NCBI GenBank assembly: GCA_938041615.1
Contig: CALISV010000285.1
Location: 1 to 13,710, forward strand
From: an uncultured Campylobacter sp.
Lineage (GTDB): Bacteria; Campylobacterota; Campylobacteria; Campylobacterales; Campylobacteraceae
DNA length: 13,710 nucleotides
Direction of reading: 5' to 3'
The notes under the pieces are model-generated. The model did not search any database, was not told the origin of the DNA, and saw only the letters and a program-made list of their open reading frames with translations. Below, one piece after another: positions 5,830 to 13,482 of this stretch. The position numbers and the translations under genes are program-made. Each line of letters opens with the position of its first letter. Position 1 is the stretch's first letter.

Positions 5830-6656
5830 GCTTCCTTGTCGCTCTCGCCCGCTTTTTCCAGATACGCGCACAGCTTCACGCCGTAAAGAAATATGATCCA
5901 TGACACGTAAATCCACACGAAAAATAGCAGCACCACCGAAAATGAACCGTAGATGCTAAGATAGGTTTTGTTATTTGCGGCGTAAAAGACGAAGATATTT
6001 TTGCCAAGATACCAGATGAGCGAGGCTACAAATGAGCTAAAAAGCGCGTTTTTTAGGGAGATTTGGCGGTTTATCGAGATGAGATACGTCACGCAAAATA
6101 TCGCCCAGATGATGAGGTACGGGAATATGCTGAGAAAATTTATCCACTTCGTGTAGGCGCTGGAGTTTAGCATATCTTGAAATAAATTTGAGAGATAAAA
6201 ACTAAGTCCAAGCCCCAAAGGAGCTAGCGTAATAAGCGTCCAATAAGCACTCAGCGAGTTCCAAAATTTGCGGCTTTGCGTGTGCATGATGCGGTTGATG
6301 ACGTACTCGTAATCGGCAAAAAACATGATCGAAGTAAAGATGATCGCACCAAGTCCGAGGATGCCAAGGCTTGAGCTGTTTTGTAAAAAGGTCTCGATGT
6401 AGTTTGAGATCGCGTCTTGGTTTGAGGGCAGTAGCTGGGCAAATATAAATTCCTTGATCTTGGCGTAATAGACGCTAAAGCTTGGCATCTGCGTAAAAAG
6501 CGAGAGCGAGATGAGAAGCACGGGGATGATGGAAAGCATCGTGTGAAAGCTCAGGCTCGAAGCGTAGTGCAGCAGCTGCTTGTCTTTGATCTTTAACATC
6601 GCCGTAAGCCAAATTTTAAGCGTCTCTTTTATCTTTTCAAATCTTTGTGCAGTCAT
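5826..6656 (-). CDS. yihY: YihY/BrkB family inner-membrane protein
   Basis: A multi-pass membrane protein of the YihY/BrkB (UPF0761) family, long mis-annotated as ribonuclease BN; its true activity is not settled. Typical features are HYASSLSFHTMLSIIPVLL near the first membrane segment and the C-terminal block YGSFSVVLLFFVWIYVSWIIFLYG, with about six hydrophobic segments. The frame is open to a TTG at 6698 (290 residues), but the ATG at 6656 has AAAGGA six or seven bases upstream, so I prefer 276 residues starting MTAQRFEK. Either start overlaps the upstream gene (20 or 62 bases), which implies translational coupling. It is the last gene of the minus-strand operon. Its stop overlaps that of comEC. 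Confidence 0.9.
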   Translation of the reverse strand: MTAQRFEKIKETLKIWLTAMLKIKDKQLLHYASSLSFHTMLSIIPVLLISLSLFTQMPSFSVYYAKIKEFIFAQLLPSNQDAISNYIETFLQNSSSLGILGLGAIIFTSIMFFADYEYVINRIMHTQSRKFWNSLSAYWTLITLAPLGLGLSFYLSNLFQDMLNSSAYTKWINFLSIFPYLIIWAIFCVTYLISINRQISLKNALFSSFVASLIWYLGKNIFVFYAANNKTYLSIYGSFSVVLLFFVWIYVSWIIFLYGVKLCAYLEKAGESDKEA

Positions 6657-7293
6657 TTTGATCCTTTGAAATTTTCTTTTGCGGGTCGAATTTTGCAATT
6701 TTATTTAACCTTTCGTATATTAGCATTTCGATAAAAATTATATCTCGCTGCGCATAAGGAAAACCTAGTGTAAAATTTTTACGATTTTTTGCGTCCCTTA
6801 TTTTTAGGATAGGCATCTTTCCTCTCATCTCTTTTTCTAAATAAATGTCTTTTATAGCGATCTTTGTACTAAATTTTAACGGCAGTATCTCCCGCTCTTT
6901 TCTTATGCTACAGCTATCTATGATGACGCCTTTTTCCGATAATGGCAATACGCAACTTAGCATCACCGCAAAGCCGAGCGCTATTACAAGTGCCGTTTCT
7001 CCGTCCGTCCTGCGCAAAAAGCCGTCTACACACAAGGGATTGCTCGCGTCATAGCATCTAACTTTACCCTCACCTTTGCTAGTTTTTATCCAAGGTTCGT
7101 CAAACGCTATCATCGATCCCCAAGATAGAAAAAGAATTACAAATAGAAATTTGCCCGCAGGGCTAGGGCGTACGAGCCATGCACCGTTTTCCGTAGTTTT
7201 ATAAGATGCCCTGCTTTTAAATAGCACGTCTTTTAAAATAGCGAGCGCTAGTAGTAAGATATTCGCGACAAATACAAAATATAAAAAAATCAT
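6637..7293 (-). CDS. Uncharacterised three-segment membrane protein with Cys-x7-Cys loop (paralogue B)
   Basis: I do not recognise a named family. The 218 residues contain membrane segments at about 3–21, 48–64 and 99–118. Between the first two is SYKTTENGAWLVRPSP. Between the last two is a loop with Cys80 and Cys88 followed by VDGFL. The last 100 residues are soluble and alternate hydrophobic and charged stretches (ILPLKFSTKIAIKDI, ILKIRD, FTLGFPYAQRDIIFIEMLIYERL), which could be a PH-like beta domain. The charge pattern suggests the Cys loop is periplasmic and the C-terminus cytoplasmic. It is clearly paralogous to the 231-residue protein encoded just upstream. The ATG at 7293 has AAGG seven bases upstream. 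The 3' end overlaps the yihY start. A structural or signalling role is only a guess. Confidence 0.85.
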   Translation of the reverse strand: MIFLYFVFVANILLLALAILKDVLFKSRASYKTTENGAWLVRPSPAGKFLFVILFLSWGSMIAFDEPWIKTSKGEGKVRCYDASNPLCVDGFLRRTDGETALVIALGFAVMLSCVLPLSEKGVIIDSCSIRKEREILPLKFSTKIAIKDIYLEKEMRGKMPILKIRDAKNRKNFTLGFPYAQRDIIFIEMLIYERLNKIAKFDPQKKISKDQNDCTKI

Positions 7294-7301
7294 CTCTTCG
7301 C

Positions 7302-7342
7302 CTTAAATTTATGTATTTTACAACGATAAATTTAAATTTAAG
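7302..7342. repeat. AT-only inverted repeat between the tandem paralogues
   Basis: CTTAAATTTA (7302–7311) and TAAATTTAAG (7333–7342) are exact inverted copies around a 21-base loop. They span the 44-base gap between the two paralogous genes and include the stop codon of the upstream one. The stem is weak and has no GC core, so a terminator is unlikely. It may just reflect the common AAATTT word. Confidence 0.4.
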
Positions 7343-8033
7343 CTGGGCGGGCGGCGTCTTTGGCTTCCGAGATTTCGACTAGTTTTTTAAATATCAAAGT
7401 TTCTAAAAAATCTACGTCTTTTCGCGAATACAAAAACCCGGCGCCAAAACCTCTTTTGCTATTTTCGCCTCTTATTTTGATGATCTTTACGCCCCTTACA
7501 AAGGCTATACCGTAAGTCATCTCGTCAAATTTTATCTTTTCGGCGTGTCTAAACGGCAAAACCTCCCACTCTTTGCAGATACCGTCTTTTTCTATCCTAA
7601 TGCCTTTTTGTATCAGTGTTATAAATGCCAAAAATATGGAGCAAACAACTACGATGTTATTAAGTGTTATTTGAAATTTGTTTTTTTGTAGATATCCGTC
7701 AATGCATCTTGGATCGTCTTTTTCAAAGCACATTAGATTTACGCCCTGCGATTTGGCCTCCTGCGAGCAAACTATGTCATCGTGATAAAAACAAGGTATA
7801 GGCTTGCCGTTATATTTTTCTAAATGCGACCCTTCGTCAAATAGTCCCATAACGCCAAAGCCTAGACACATTATAAATATCGGTAGTTTTAAAAGCGGAT
7901 TAGGGGAGATAAGCAAGGCTCCGCGATCGACAGTTTTGTATGATTTATTTTTTATAAAAAGCGGGGCAAGGACGCCGACGCCTACCGCAACGTAGATCAT
8001 AAATACGGCAAAATCAGCTACGCCTTGCGCCAA
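7338..8033 (-). CDS. Uncharacterised three-segment membrane protein with doubled Cys-x7-Cys loop (paralogue A)
   Basis: 231 residues, same plan as the downstream paralogue: membrane segments at about 8–27, 48–65 and 123–142, a linker SYKTVDRGALLISPNP, and a soluble C-terminal domain (EVLPFRHAEKIKFDE, GVKIIKIRG, GFGAGFLYSRKDVDFLETLI). The second loop is longer than in the paralogue and holds two Cys-x7-Cys units, C81-FYHDDIV-C89 and C102-FEKDDPR-C110, both of the form CFxxDDxxC; the second is followed by IDGYL, matching VDGFL in the paralogue. The loop is probably periplasmic and disulphide-bonded. The TTG start lies two bases after the glcD stop, with GGGG eight bases upstream, so it is coupled to glcD. 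An ATG at 8000 lacks a ribosome site and would cut the first membrane segment. Function unknown. Confidence 0.83.
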   Translation of the reverse strand: MAQGVADFAVFMIYVAVGVGVLAPLFIKNKSYKTVDRGALLISPNPLLKLPIFIMCLGFGVMGLFDEGSHLEKYNGKPIPCFYHDDIVCSQEAKSQGVNLMCFEKDDPRCIDGYLQKNKFQITLNNIVVVCSIFLAFITLIQKGIRIEKDGICKEWEVLPFRHAEKIKFDEMTYGIAFVRGVKIIKIRGENSKRGFGAGFLYSRKDVDFLETLIFKKLVEISEAKDAARPA

Positions 8034-10248: not shown

Positions 10249-12105
10249 ATGAAGAAATTTTCATTAGCTTTACTGCTGGCGGTAAATTTATTCGCCGCCG
10301 CGCCTATACAACCTACCGTCCAGGAGCTTAGCTGGCCTAGCGGAGATACGTTTTTAACTTTTTTGGAGAAAAATTCCATCCCCCTTTCTCTTTATTATGA
10401 TATGGATTCGGACGATAAGGAGTTTGTAAGCGAGATAAAAGCGGGCATATCGTATCAAATTTTAAGAGACGAAAAAGGCGGGATAAGCCAGGTGCTAATC
10501 CCAGTAAACGAAGAACTTCAAGCGCAAATTTATAAAGACGAAGAGGGTAAATTTAAATTTCAGCTCTCATCGATTTCGTATCAGACTTATAGGCGCGTGC
10601 TTAGTATGCCGATCGTCTCGAATCCTTCGCAAGATATACTAGAAGCTACGGGTAGCGCGGCGCTAGCGCATGGATTTTATCTAGCTATGAGGAGCGAAGT
10701 GGGTGCTAAAGAGTTTACGAAGCTAAAAAAAGGCGACAGGCTGGCGATGGAATACACGCAAAAGATGAGACTGGGACGCACGTTCGGCGCTCCTGAGATA
10801 TACTGGGCGACGATTGAAATCAGTGGCAAAAAATACACGGTTTATAAATACGAAAACAAATACTACGACAAAAGCGGCAAGAAAAACGATAAATTTTTGC
10901 TAACTAGACCGATCGCAAACGCTCGTATTACCTCGCCTTTTACGCCCAAGCGCTATCATCCGATACTAAAGCGCTATAAGGCCCATCTAGGCGTGGACTA
11001 CGGCGCTCCTAAAGGCACTCCGATAAAGGCCGCAGGCGAGGGTACGGTTAAATTCGTCGGTACTAAAAGCGGCTACGGCAAGGTAGTAATACTAGGTCAC
11101 ACTAGCGGTTACGAGACGCTATATGCGCACACTAGCGGCTTTGCTAAAGGTATAAAAAGCGGAGTAAAAGTTAAGCAAGGTCAGCTCATCGCATATGTAG
11201 GAAACACGGGCATGAGTACGGGTTCGCACCTGCATTTCGGCGTTTATAAAAATGGTAACGCTATAAACCCGGAGACCGAGATAAAGGTAGCTAAAAGCGT
11301 ATTTGCCTTAAATGAAAGCGCTAAATTTCAAAAATATATAAAACAGTTTGAAAACAAGATAAAAGAGTATGCCAACAAGGATGAAATCCCTGAAAAAGAG
11401 CAAAAATTTGATGCGGCGATGGACTGGGAGCATCCTATAACCGAGCCAAAAGCAGACGTAAATTTGACGATGACGGACGCAAATTCTACCTTTTCTAGCA
11501 GAGATTTAAATTTAACTACGGAGACGAAAAGGGCAGAAGAAAATTTAACTAACATCGGCTCTTTAAAAACAGATATAAATTTGACAAAAGAGACAAAGGG
11601 TGACAACAAGGAAGACAATGCGACCAAAACCGAAGCAAATTTGACGAGCGAGCTCGCAAGCGGCAGCGACGATGCAAATTTGACGGACTCAAATTTAACT
11701 AAAACAGAGTCAAATTTGACCGTGCAGCCTAAATCCGAAAGCAATTCGTCCGAGATCAAAACGGACGCGAACGAAACGGCAAATTTAGCCGCAGCAAAAT
11801 CTGCAAAATCGGAGTCAAATTTGACCTCTGCAAAAGCGTCAAACAAGGCGGCAAGCAAGACTGAGCCAAAAAAATCAAGCAAAGAGGCGAAAAAATCTGA
11901 GTCAAATTCGTCCGCTAAAAATAAAGACAAAACAAAACAGACGGATAAGAAAAAGGACAAAACAAATAAAGAAACCAAAACCGAGTCCAAAAAGAAAAAA
12001 GACGTAAACGCCAGCAAAGATAAGTCTAAAAAGCAAAAAGATGCCGCCGATAAAAAGGCTAAATCAAAAGGCAAAACCGCCGAGTCAAGCGACAAAAAGA
12101 AGTAA
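10249..12105 (+). CDS. M23 (LytM) peptidoglycan peptidase, Csd3/Pgp3-like, with a long sequon-rich Lys-rich tail
   Basis: A periplasmic zinc peptidase that cuts peptidoglycan peptides. Signal peptide at 1–17. Residues about 20–215 correspond to the N-terminal domains of Csd3-type proteins (H. pylori HP0506, a cell-shape endopeptidase/carboxypeptidase). The LytM domain is about 225–345, with all expected residues: His246 and Asp250 in HLGVD, catalytic His294 in LYAH, and His327/His329 in HLHFGV. A short helix (about 355–378) leads into a tail, 400–618, of low complexity without hydrophobic core: Asn/Thr/Ser/Asp/Glu-rich to about 530, then very lysine-rich. The tail holds 15 D/E-x-N-x-S/T sequons. 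At 618 residues it is about 200 longer than H. pylori Csd3. Start ATG; AAGGGA lies four bases upstream. It is divergent from the PgbA-N gene and abuts mgtE. The enzyme call is strong; the Csd3/Pgp3 subfamily is likely. Confidence 0.93.
   Translation: MKKFSLALLLAVNLFAAAPIQPTVQELSWPSGDTFLTFLEKNSIPLSLYYDMDSDDKEFVSEIKAGISYQILRDEKGGISQVLIPVNEELQAQIYKDEEGKFKFQLSSISYQTYRRVLSMPIVSNPSQDILEATGSAALAHGFYLAMRSEVGAKEFTKLKKGDRLAMEYTQKMRLGRTFGAPEIYWATIEISGKKYTVYKYENKYYDKSGKKNDKFLLTRPIANARITSPFTPKRYHPILKRYKAHLGVDYGAPKGTPIKAAGEGTVKFVGTKSGYGKVVILGHTSGYETLYAHTSGFAKGIKSGVKVKQGQLIAYVGNTGMSTGSHLHFGVYKNGNAINPETEIKVAKSVFALNESAKFQKYIKQFENKIKEYANKDEIPEKEQKFDAAMDWEHPITEPKADVNLTMTDANSTFSSRDLNLTTETKRAEENLTNIGSLKTDINLTKETKGDNKEDNATKTEANLTSELASGSDDANLTDSNLTKTESNLTVQPKSESNSSEIKTDANETANLAAAKSAKSESNLTSAKASNKAASKTEPKKSSKEAKKSESNSSAKNKDKTKQTDKKKDKTNKETKTESKKKKDVNASKDKSKKQKDAADKKAKSKGKTAESSDKKK
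11455..12015 (+). other. Array of 15 bacterial N-glycosylation sequons in the peptidase tail
   Basis: Every N-x-S/T in the tail has Asp or Glu at -2, the form required by Campylobacter PglB. The asparagines are 405, 412, 421, 432, 444, 457, 464, 477, 482, 489, 499, 508, 524, 553 and 587. Spacing is mostly 5–16 residues; 13 of them fall within 120 residues. Nine are Asn-Leu-Thr, each encoded by AAT-TTG/TTA-AC following a codon ending in A, so each contains the AAATTT word. The others are NST, NAT, NSS (twice), NET and NAS. The motif is visible; glycan occupancy is inferred. Confidence 0.88.
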
Positions 12106-13482
12106 ATGATGGAAGAAAACGAGCAATTAAACGAAGCCAAAGAGCTGCTAGACTCGCACCTAAACGAGACGATCGATAAGGAACTAAGCCCCGCCGACCT
12201 CGCCCAGCACCTAAAAACGCTTAAAAAGCACGATGAGGAGCTATTTGGCGAATACCTCGAAAAGCTAGATCCCGAGATCCTGGGCGACGTAGCGATCGAG
12301 ATGCCAGATCACATGCTAAAGGACGTGATCGAGCAGATACCAAGCGACAAGATCATCGAGGCGATCGAGGAGCTGGAGAGTGACGATGCGGCCGAGCTTT
12401 TGGAGTATATCGAGGAGATCGACGAACAAAAGGCGAAGGAGCTCTTTGACGGCCTGGATAAGGACGATCAGGAGGAGATTTTACGTATCCGCAGCTACGA
12501 CGAGGGCGAAGCGGGTGCGTTCATGCAGACGGAGCTTTTTAGCGCGCATATCGACGAGCAGCTAAAAACGGCGGTCGAGCGGTTAAGGCGCGAGAAGGAA
12601 GAGGGCAAACTAGAAAACGTCTCGCAGCTTTTTATCACCGATAAAAAGGGTGTTTTGCTCCATGCGGTGCCGCTTGAGGATCTGATACTATTTGACTTTA
12701 ACCAAACTTTAAGAGAGATCATCGCAAAGAGCGAAGAGGATAAGTATAAACCAAACGTGGCCGTAGATAACGAGCCTATCGAGACGGTCGTAGAAACGGT
12801 CGAAAACTACGATATGAACTCGATCGCGGTCGTCGATAGCAAGGGTTATTTGCTAGGTCGTATCACAACAGACGACATCCACGACTTTATAAAAGAGAGC
12901 GCCACGGAGCAAATTTATAACCTAGCCGGCGTCGACGACGAGGCTGAGGAAGAGGATACGAGCCTGGTTAAGGCCACTCGCGCACGCGCCGTTTGGCTAC
13001 TTATAAATTTATTTACCGCGCTTATTAGTTCATCGATCATCGGGCTTTTTGACGAGACGATAGCTAGCTACGTAGCACTTGCGGTGCTTATGCCAATCGT
13101 CGCATCCATGGGCGGAAACACCGGCACGCAGGCGCTTACGGTTACGGTGCGCCGACTAACTCTGGGAGAGATCGAGTTTAAAAACGCCGCCGTCGCGCTA
13201 AAACGCGAGGTAGGCATCGCGCTCATAAACGGGCTAACCTTTGCGTTTTTGATGGGCATTATCGCTGCGCTGTGGTTTAACCGCCCGATGCTAGGCGTAG
13301 TTATCGGCGCTTCGATGCTGATAAATTTGTTTTTCGCGGGATTTTTCGGTACTTTGATACCGCTAAGCTTAAAAAAATTTGACATCGATCCCGCCGTCGG
13401 CTCGGCCGTACTGCTTACCACCGTTACCGATACGGTCGGCTTTTTTAGCTTTTTAGGACTGGCAAAATGGATACTTCTGTAA
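12106..13482 (+). CDS. mgtE: Magnesium transporter MgtE
   Basis: MgtE is a Mg2+-gated inner-membrane magnesium channel. The 458 residues show the full layout: an acidic N-terminal superhelical domain (about 25–135, with repeated DPEILGDVAIEMP-like helices), paired CBS domains (about 137–265, with SIAVVDSKGYLLGRITTDD at 239–257), a connecting helix, and five membrane segments from about 296 to 458. The pore signatures are MPIVASMGGNTGTQ (329–342) and DPAVGSAVLLTTVTDTVGFFSF, where Asp442 matches the pore aspartate of family members. ATG immediately follows the TAA of the peptidase gene (TAAATGATG), with a second ATG next to it; AAGAAG just upstream may serve as ribosome site. Translation is probably coupled to the peptidase gene. 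The acidic cytoplasmic domain is expected to sense Mg2+. Confidence 0.96.
   Translation: MMEENEQLNEAKELLDSHLNETIDKELSPADLAQHLKTLKKHDEELFGEYLEKLDPEILGDVAIEMPDHMLKDVIEQIPSDKIIEAIEELESDDAAELLEYIEEIDEQKAKELFDGLDKDDQEEILRIRSYDEGEAGAFMQTELFSAHIDEQLKTAVERLRREKEEGKLENVSQLFITDKKGVLLHAVPLEDLILFDFNQTLREIIAKSEEDKYKPNVAVDNEPIETVVETVENYDMNSIAVVDSKGYLLGRITTDDIHDFIKESATEQIYNLAGVDDEAEEEDTSLVKATRARAVWLLINLFTALISSSIIGLFDETIASYVALAVLMPIVASMGGNTGTQALTVTVRRLTLGEIEFKNAAVALKREVGIALINGLTFAFLMGIIAALWFNRPMLGVVIGASMLINLFFAGFFGTLIPLSLKKFDIDPAVGSAVLLTTVTDTVGFFSFLGLAKWILL

Follow-up and report, generated by a model that had tools for sequence, protein, structure and literature searches.

A conserved string of PglB-type sequons suggests that a glycosylated tail helps control a Campylobacter cell-wall endopeptidase

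Csd3-type endopeptidases and natural multi-sequon proteins

The Campylobacter jejuni protein Pgp5 (CJJ81176_1228) is reported as the orthologue of Helicobacter pylori Csd3 and is composed of a Csd3_N and an M23 domain (PMC12454360, PMC10151779). It is described as a DD-carboxypeptidase/DD-endopeptidase that affects cell curvature, and this activity is reported for Csd3 as well (PMC12454360, PMC10151779). Structures of Csd3/HdpA are available as PDB 4RNY/4RNZ (in PMC6978369 the name H. pylori Csd3 is given to 4RNZ, the second entry of the 4RNY chain). The protein described here is encoded in a 13,710-nucleotide stretch of DNA from an uncultured Campylobacter sp. (the window). Like Csd3, it combines Csd3_N with a LytM domain, and PDB 4rny matches its residues 27–374 (E 2e-75). 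The structure chain of H. pylori Csd3 has 371 residues and the match stops at residue 374 of the window protein; no counterpart of the latter's long C-terminal extension (the tail) is seen there. Pgp5 has 386 aa and thus, judged by length rather than by direct alignment, lacks a tail of this kind. A relative from C. lari (P0110) has 385 aa and is 49% identical.

Ordinary Campylobacter PglB glycoproteins follow the same D/E-x-N-x-S/T rule as the window protein, which has 15 potential sites. Because most proteins have few sites, selection on the N-glycosylation of single Campylobacter proteins is hard to address. The GlycoTag of C. jejuni (Cj1433c) contains nine KIDLNNT repeats, and an exported fusion in E. 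coli is reported to have taken up to nine glycans, 3–4 on average (PMC4879521). PglB can thus glycosylate dense natural strings of sequons. Like the tail, GlycoTag occurs naturally in Campylobacter and is rich in strict sequons. It consists, however, of nine perfect repeats close to the N-terminus of a different protein, whereas the tail carries non-identical sites over ~180 residues and is conserved on an enzyme. The tail is a native, non-repetitive multi-site candidate substrate of PglB for the study of glycosylation order and efficiency. No such tail on a peptidoglycan hydrolase is described in the titles and abstract openings of the open-licence literature among the matches listed. Within the same matches, the combination of a known enzyme family with a known modification rule was not found described and appears to be new.

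The C-terminal extension and its sequons

The gene occupies positions 10249..12105 of the window (+ strand) and encodes 618 aa. A probable signal peptide, judged by eye, spans about residues 1–18 (10249..10302). It is followed by the Csd3_N domain (residues 27–106; 10327..10566; PF18059, 5.4e-31) and the Peptidase_M23 (LytM) domain (residues 245–341; 10981..11271; PF01551, 2.4e-31), both of which exceed the Pfam cut-offs. The Zn-binding motifs HxxxD (His246, Asp250) and HxH (residues 327–329; His327, His329) show no variation in alignments A1 and A2. By its domains and motifs the protein is the Csd3/Pgp5-type endopeptidase of its clade; a DD-endopeptidase/DD-carboxypeptidase activity is predicted from family likeness.

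Downstream lies an mgtE-like transporter gene (12106..13482, +; Pfam MgtE). The stop codon of the tail abuts its start codon (TAAATG, 12103–12108), so csd3 and mgtE may be translationally coupled. Elsewhere in the window, two adjacent membrane-like ORFs on the minus strand (6637–7293 and 7338–8033) have no Pfam match and appear by eye to be tandem paralogues.

The tail begins at about residue 393 and has two parts. An acidic, sequon-rich zone (residues 393–525; 11425..11823) has a net charge of −10 and holds 13 strict sequons, Asn405 to Asn524, namely 12 counted by script and Asn524, whose motif crosses the edge of the zone. The Lys-rich end (residues 526–618; 11824..12102) has a net charge of +21 and holds two, Asn553 and Asn587. 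In the AlphaFold model residues 387–618 fall below a pLDDT of 50, which may partly stem from the 31-row alignment on which the model was built. Such low confidence would fit disorder, and both parts are probably disordered.

Beyond residue 395 the protein has 15 non-proline N-x-S/T sites (Asn405, 412, 421, 432, 444, 457, 464, 477, 482, 489, 499, 508, 524, 553 and 587). Asp or Glu is present at −2 in 15/15 and Pro at −1 in none. The original prediction of 15 strict PglB-type sites out of 15 is confirmed by this recount, and its coordinates, 11455..12015 (+), run exactly from the first −2 Asp to the +2 Ser of the last site. It had also named Asn355, with Ala at −2, as the only non-proline sequon of the folded part, and this is correct; the NPS at residue 125 is excluded by its Pro. 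The six tail sites other than NLT (NST, NAT, NSS twice, NET and NAS) are all acidic at −2. Among the six tail Asn residues outside sequons, none has an acidic residue at this position (0/6 versus 15/15; p 1.8e-5).

Background rates were taken from an 800 kb sample (38%) of the nearest genome, G001, made up of 40 evenly spaced stretches; one block was moved so as to include pglB, and one includes the M23 locus. The ORFs of this sample were called mechanically, without annotation, and 748 have at least 100 aa. With the M23 gene excluded, 199/1468 sequons and 1456/12,039 of all Asn residues are acidic at −2; for NLT sites the count is 22/155, and for NLT sites written with AAATTT it is 20/123. 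The binomial probability of 15/15 is 9.6e-14 at the sequon rate and 1.5e-12 at the rate of the AAATTT-written NLT sites. These values assume independent sites; the units of the tail have a common K-[S/T]-[D/E]-x-N character and partly repetitive DNA and are not fully independent, so the comparative tests below carry more weight. The G001 orthologue has 15 strict sites and the next-best ORFs of the sample 6, 5 and 4; the other 747 ORFs have 0–6, and 606 of them have none. Eleven other ORFs tested in the window have 0 or 1 strict site apiece.

Two further proteins of the G001 sample are mentioned for their sequons. A RodZ-like protein containing HTH_25 (Pfam match under the cut-off; L109:10888-11910, −) has 5/6 strict sequons, and a YhdP-like protein (L136:2485-5052, −) has 6/10.

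Sequon counts and retention were determined for 42 orthologous proteins together with the window protein (43 sequences); the site count per protein leaves out 3 of the 42, which have no anchor. Tail sequons are acidic at −2 in 503/522 cases, other tail Asn residues in 29/234. Counted as distinct 7-residue contexts, the values are 104/111 and 8/54. Among the seven exceptional sequon contexts, two are the first Asn of N-N-S-S, the second Asn of which is strict. Of the eight acidic non-sequon contexts, four or more resemble sequons whose Ser/Thr may have been lost. The perfect acidity claimed at −2 is therefore true of the window protein; across the orthologues it is near-complete.

The aligned rows are related and many are metagenomic, and the following cell counts represent non-independent events. 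Acidic residues are retained in 497/519 cells at −2 versus 148/322 at 10 other acidic positions of residues 397–525, and none of 20,000 site permutations is as extreme. With 13 rows the values are 146/154 and 59/95. The control drawn from the whole tail (587/788) is less extreme than that from the acidic zone, because acidic residues are well retained in the Lys-rich end, too (0.71–1.0 per site). Asn is retained in 468/507 cells in sequons versus 123/178 outside, and Ser/Thr in 448/515 cells at +2 versus 423/806 elsewhere in the acidic zone. In alignment A1, 10 of the 18 non-gap changes at −2 are exchanges between Asp and Glu. The acid at −2 of Asn508 is kept in only 66% of the rows.

A pN/pS comparison of six sequences (the window and five genomes, positions defined by the window) gives the same picture at the codon level. 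The values are 0.23 at −2, 0.11 at Asn and 0.18 at Ser/Thr. At the flanking positions they are 0.42 (−3), 0.85 (−1), 0.68 (+3) and 0.62 (+4), and 0.55 for the rest of the acidic zone. Constraint is also evident in the Lys-rich end (0.23) and in the enzyme core (0.21).

Conservation of the acidic residue had been taken to argue for selection for glycan attachment. The orthologues support this: the −2 acid, Asn and Ser/Thr persist while their neighbours in the acidic zone drift. The 0–6 strict sites in each of the 747 remaining ORFs sampled from G001 and the presence of PglB in all five tail-bearing relatives (see below) add to it. Persistence of −2 acidity in drifting orthologous tails had been named as a check and is observed; one orthologue (P0042) has only 6 sites.

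Distribution of the extension and of PglB

In a protein search with the tail alone, 42/42 matches carry an M23 domain, and no other kind of protein is present among them. One match is named C. showae (P0014). Within the genus of G001 the tail is present in 5/48 genomes (frames of 590–635 aa) and absent from 43/48. For 30 of these 43 the absence was read from sequence (25 loci plus 5); for the other 13, including G043, it follows from frame lengths of 389–417. In the tailless loci read, the protein ends 62–72 residues past the HLHFG motif. G004 at first showed an apparent 872-aa frame, but its csd3 ends with no tail. A search of the genome contigs returned mostly distant M23 proteins, which were left out.

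The gene order pgbA-like, csd3, mgtE is kept in 30/30 loci (5 tailed, 25 tailless). mgtE adjoins csd3 in both groups, which supports orthology of the tailed protein with its tailless relatives. Fusion with a neighbouring gene was rejected as the source of the tail, as the order is the same in both groups. A tree built from the enzyme core (56 rows) places all 16 rows with a tail on one side of a single branch with a support of 100/100, which requires one change. Thus, from the tree, the tail looks like a lineage-specific gain, apparently made once, in one clade around C. showae. Some genomes of this clade may belong to C. rectus. The suggestion that it was gained in Campylobacter holds as to the gain; it applies to one clade and not to the genus at large.

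PglB (STT3) is found in 47/48 genomes of the genus, and each of the five tail-bearing genomes has a single copy. Given its presence in all five, among them G001, the nearest of the relatives, the genome from which the window derives probably carries pglB too. For C. rectus and C. showae a protein glycosylation locus is described (PMC7773321). The tail was also considered as a mark of PglB presence. This was rejected: 42/43 tailless genomes have PglB, so that having the enzyme is no predictor of having the tail.

Aligned with C. lari PglB (3rce), the G001 PglB shows Arg at the position equivalent to Arg331. The corresponding motif was read in three of the five tail-bearing genomes (G001, loci L172 and L174; G039 and G041 lie outside this set) and is present in all three. 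This residue is not decisive, because PglB of C. coli and PglB of C. upsaliensis, both relaxed, are reported to keep the equivalent Arg (PMC4894442).

The PglB frames differ in length, with 789 aa in the five tail-bearing genomes, 784–787 in G047/G005 and 705–723 for the best match in the other 40. The extra stretch, inspected in L001 (long-frame loci: L001, L172, L174, L149, L152), appears by eye to consist of added membrane segments. A second STT3/PglB match is present in 23/48 genomes of the genus; G043 has none.

The clade provides a natural experiment: the tail goes back to an apparently single gain, its acidic zone is drifting and its sites are kept. Tailless sister species with PglB and the same gene order are the controls.

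Proposed role and competing explanations

Most likely (a probability of roughly 0.75), the tail is a C-terminal extension that selection maintains as a multi-site PglB acceptor, for which a function as spacer and anchor is proposed. After export to the periplasm, as expected from the N-terminus judged by eye and from the known homologues, PglB would very probably glycosylate many of the D/E-x-N-x-S/T sites (at most 15) of the unfolded tail; attachment is predicted here from the motif. The glycosylated acidic zone could then form a stretched, protease-resistant hydrophilic spacer from the hydrolase to the Lys-rich end. This conserved end would probably touch a negatively charged surface of the envelope, e.g. 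peptidoglycan, and the reach, position or lifetime of the enzyme would come to depend on glycosylation. The spacer-and-anchor step as a whole is possible, with a chance somewhat below even. The evidence suggests that a sugar-coated tail helps control a cell-wall enzyme, and such a tail would connect N-glycosylation with the trimming of the cell wall and with shape. A bolder version is put forward tentatively. Here the general N-glycosylation system of the clade would have been recruited specifically to regulate a cell-shape hydrolase through a bottle-brush module, in which a disordered, densely glycosylated spacer and a cationic anchor tie peptidoglycan trimming to glycan supply.

Alternatively, the glycans may act as an armour that mainly shields the tail, or masks a C-terminal degradation signal, from periplasmic proteases. 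The amount of hydrolase would then follow glycosylation, and brush or spacing effects would be secondary. Tail-specific proteases can act on peptidoglycan hydrolases, and the tail is long and lacks structure in the model. N-glycosylation is reported to protect surface proteins of C. jejuni from chicken gut proteases (PMC7773321). Protection leaves unexplained why any tail is kept, and likewise why the Lys-rich end, with only 2/15 of the sites, is so strongly conserved. It is a serious candidate, though not the favored one.

The Lys-rich end itself might be the functional part, anchored electrostatically to peptidoglycan or to some other polymer of the envelope, with the sequon zone as a solubilizing linker that has little need of glycans. 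Its charge of +21 and its low pN/pS (0.23 versus 0.55 for the non-sequon rest of the tail) fit an anchor. A plain linker, however, needs no strict sequons, and the −2, Asn and Ser/Thr positions are constrained about as much as the enzyme core, which makes this explanation unlikely.

Two further explanations concern the origin of the sites. Copying of one K-[S/T]-[D/E]-x-N-L-T unit would have passed on the acid by inheritance, not by selection. The tail does contain short imperfect direct repeats (six 21-nt copies at 76–100%), and Lys is found at −4 in 89/189 contexts. TRF, on the other hand, finds no tandem array at 11400–12110, all four Asp/Glu codons are in use at −2, and the acid is kept at −2 while it is often lost elsewhere in the acidic zone. 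Local duplication as the source of the acid is thus improbable. An origin from tandem repeats of the GlycoTag kind was rejected, as the repeats are imperfect and scattered and TRF detects no array.

The second explanation starts from the DNA word AAATTT, which in one frame reads x-N-L/F. It is the commonest 6-mer in the first 400 kb of the G001 sample (L107–L126), where base composition would predict 162 copies and 2830 are present; the reversed word TTTAAA serves as a control and occurs 885 times. AAATTT reaches at least 1.7 times the count of the reversed word in 45/48 genomes and is near the reversed-word level in G003, G038 and G043. Nine of the 15 tail sites are NLT written with AAATTT. 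Its over-representation is the likely reason why Leu is so often present at +1; the acid at −2 is not accounted for.

A genus loaded with AAATTT might pile up NLT in unconstrained disordered sequence and so produce the sequons as a by-product of its DNA, as the word counts and a G001 DUF459/SGNH protein (L124:3950-5077, +) with four NLT sites in its linker would allow, but the word brings no acid (20/123 for AAATTT-written NLT elsewhere in the sample) and the six non-NLT tail sites are just as strict, so that this origin is largely refuted as a full explanation and highly improbable. In the DUF459/SGNH protein, 3/7 sequons are acidic at −2, and its NLT-rich linker is a natural contrast to the M23 tail.

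AAATTT might serve as an uptake word or be a methylation target. GAATTC occurs 33 times in the same 400 kb versus 114 expected. The longer word CAAATTTGAC is found 671 times in G001, evenly on both strands, versus 2 for the reversed word. Among 21 genomes it seemed confined to the tail-bearing clade, but its core AAATTT is common in 45/48 genomes and brings no acid at −2. At L183 (G010:C9:244500-248500) there is a CRISPR-looking array with repeats of the ATTTAAACAAATTTGACCCGATCAAGGGGATTGAAAC type, which accounts for the evenly spaced CAAATTTGAC matches at this locus.
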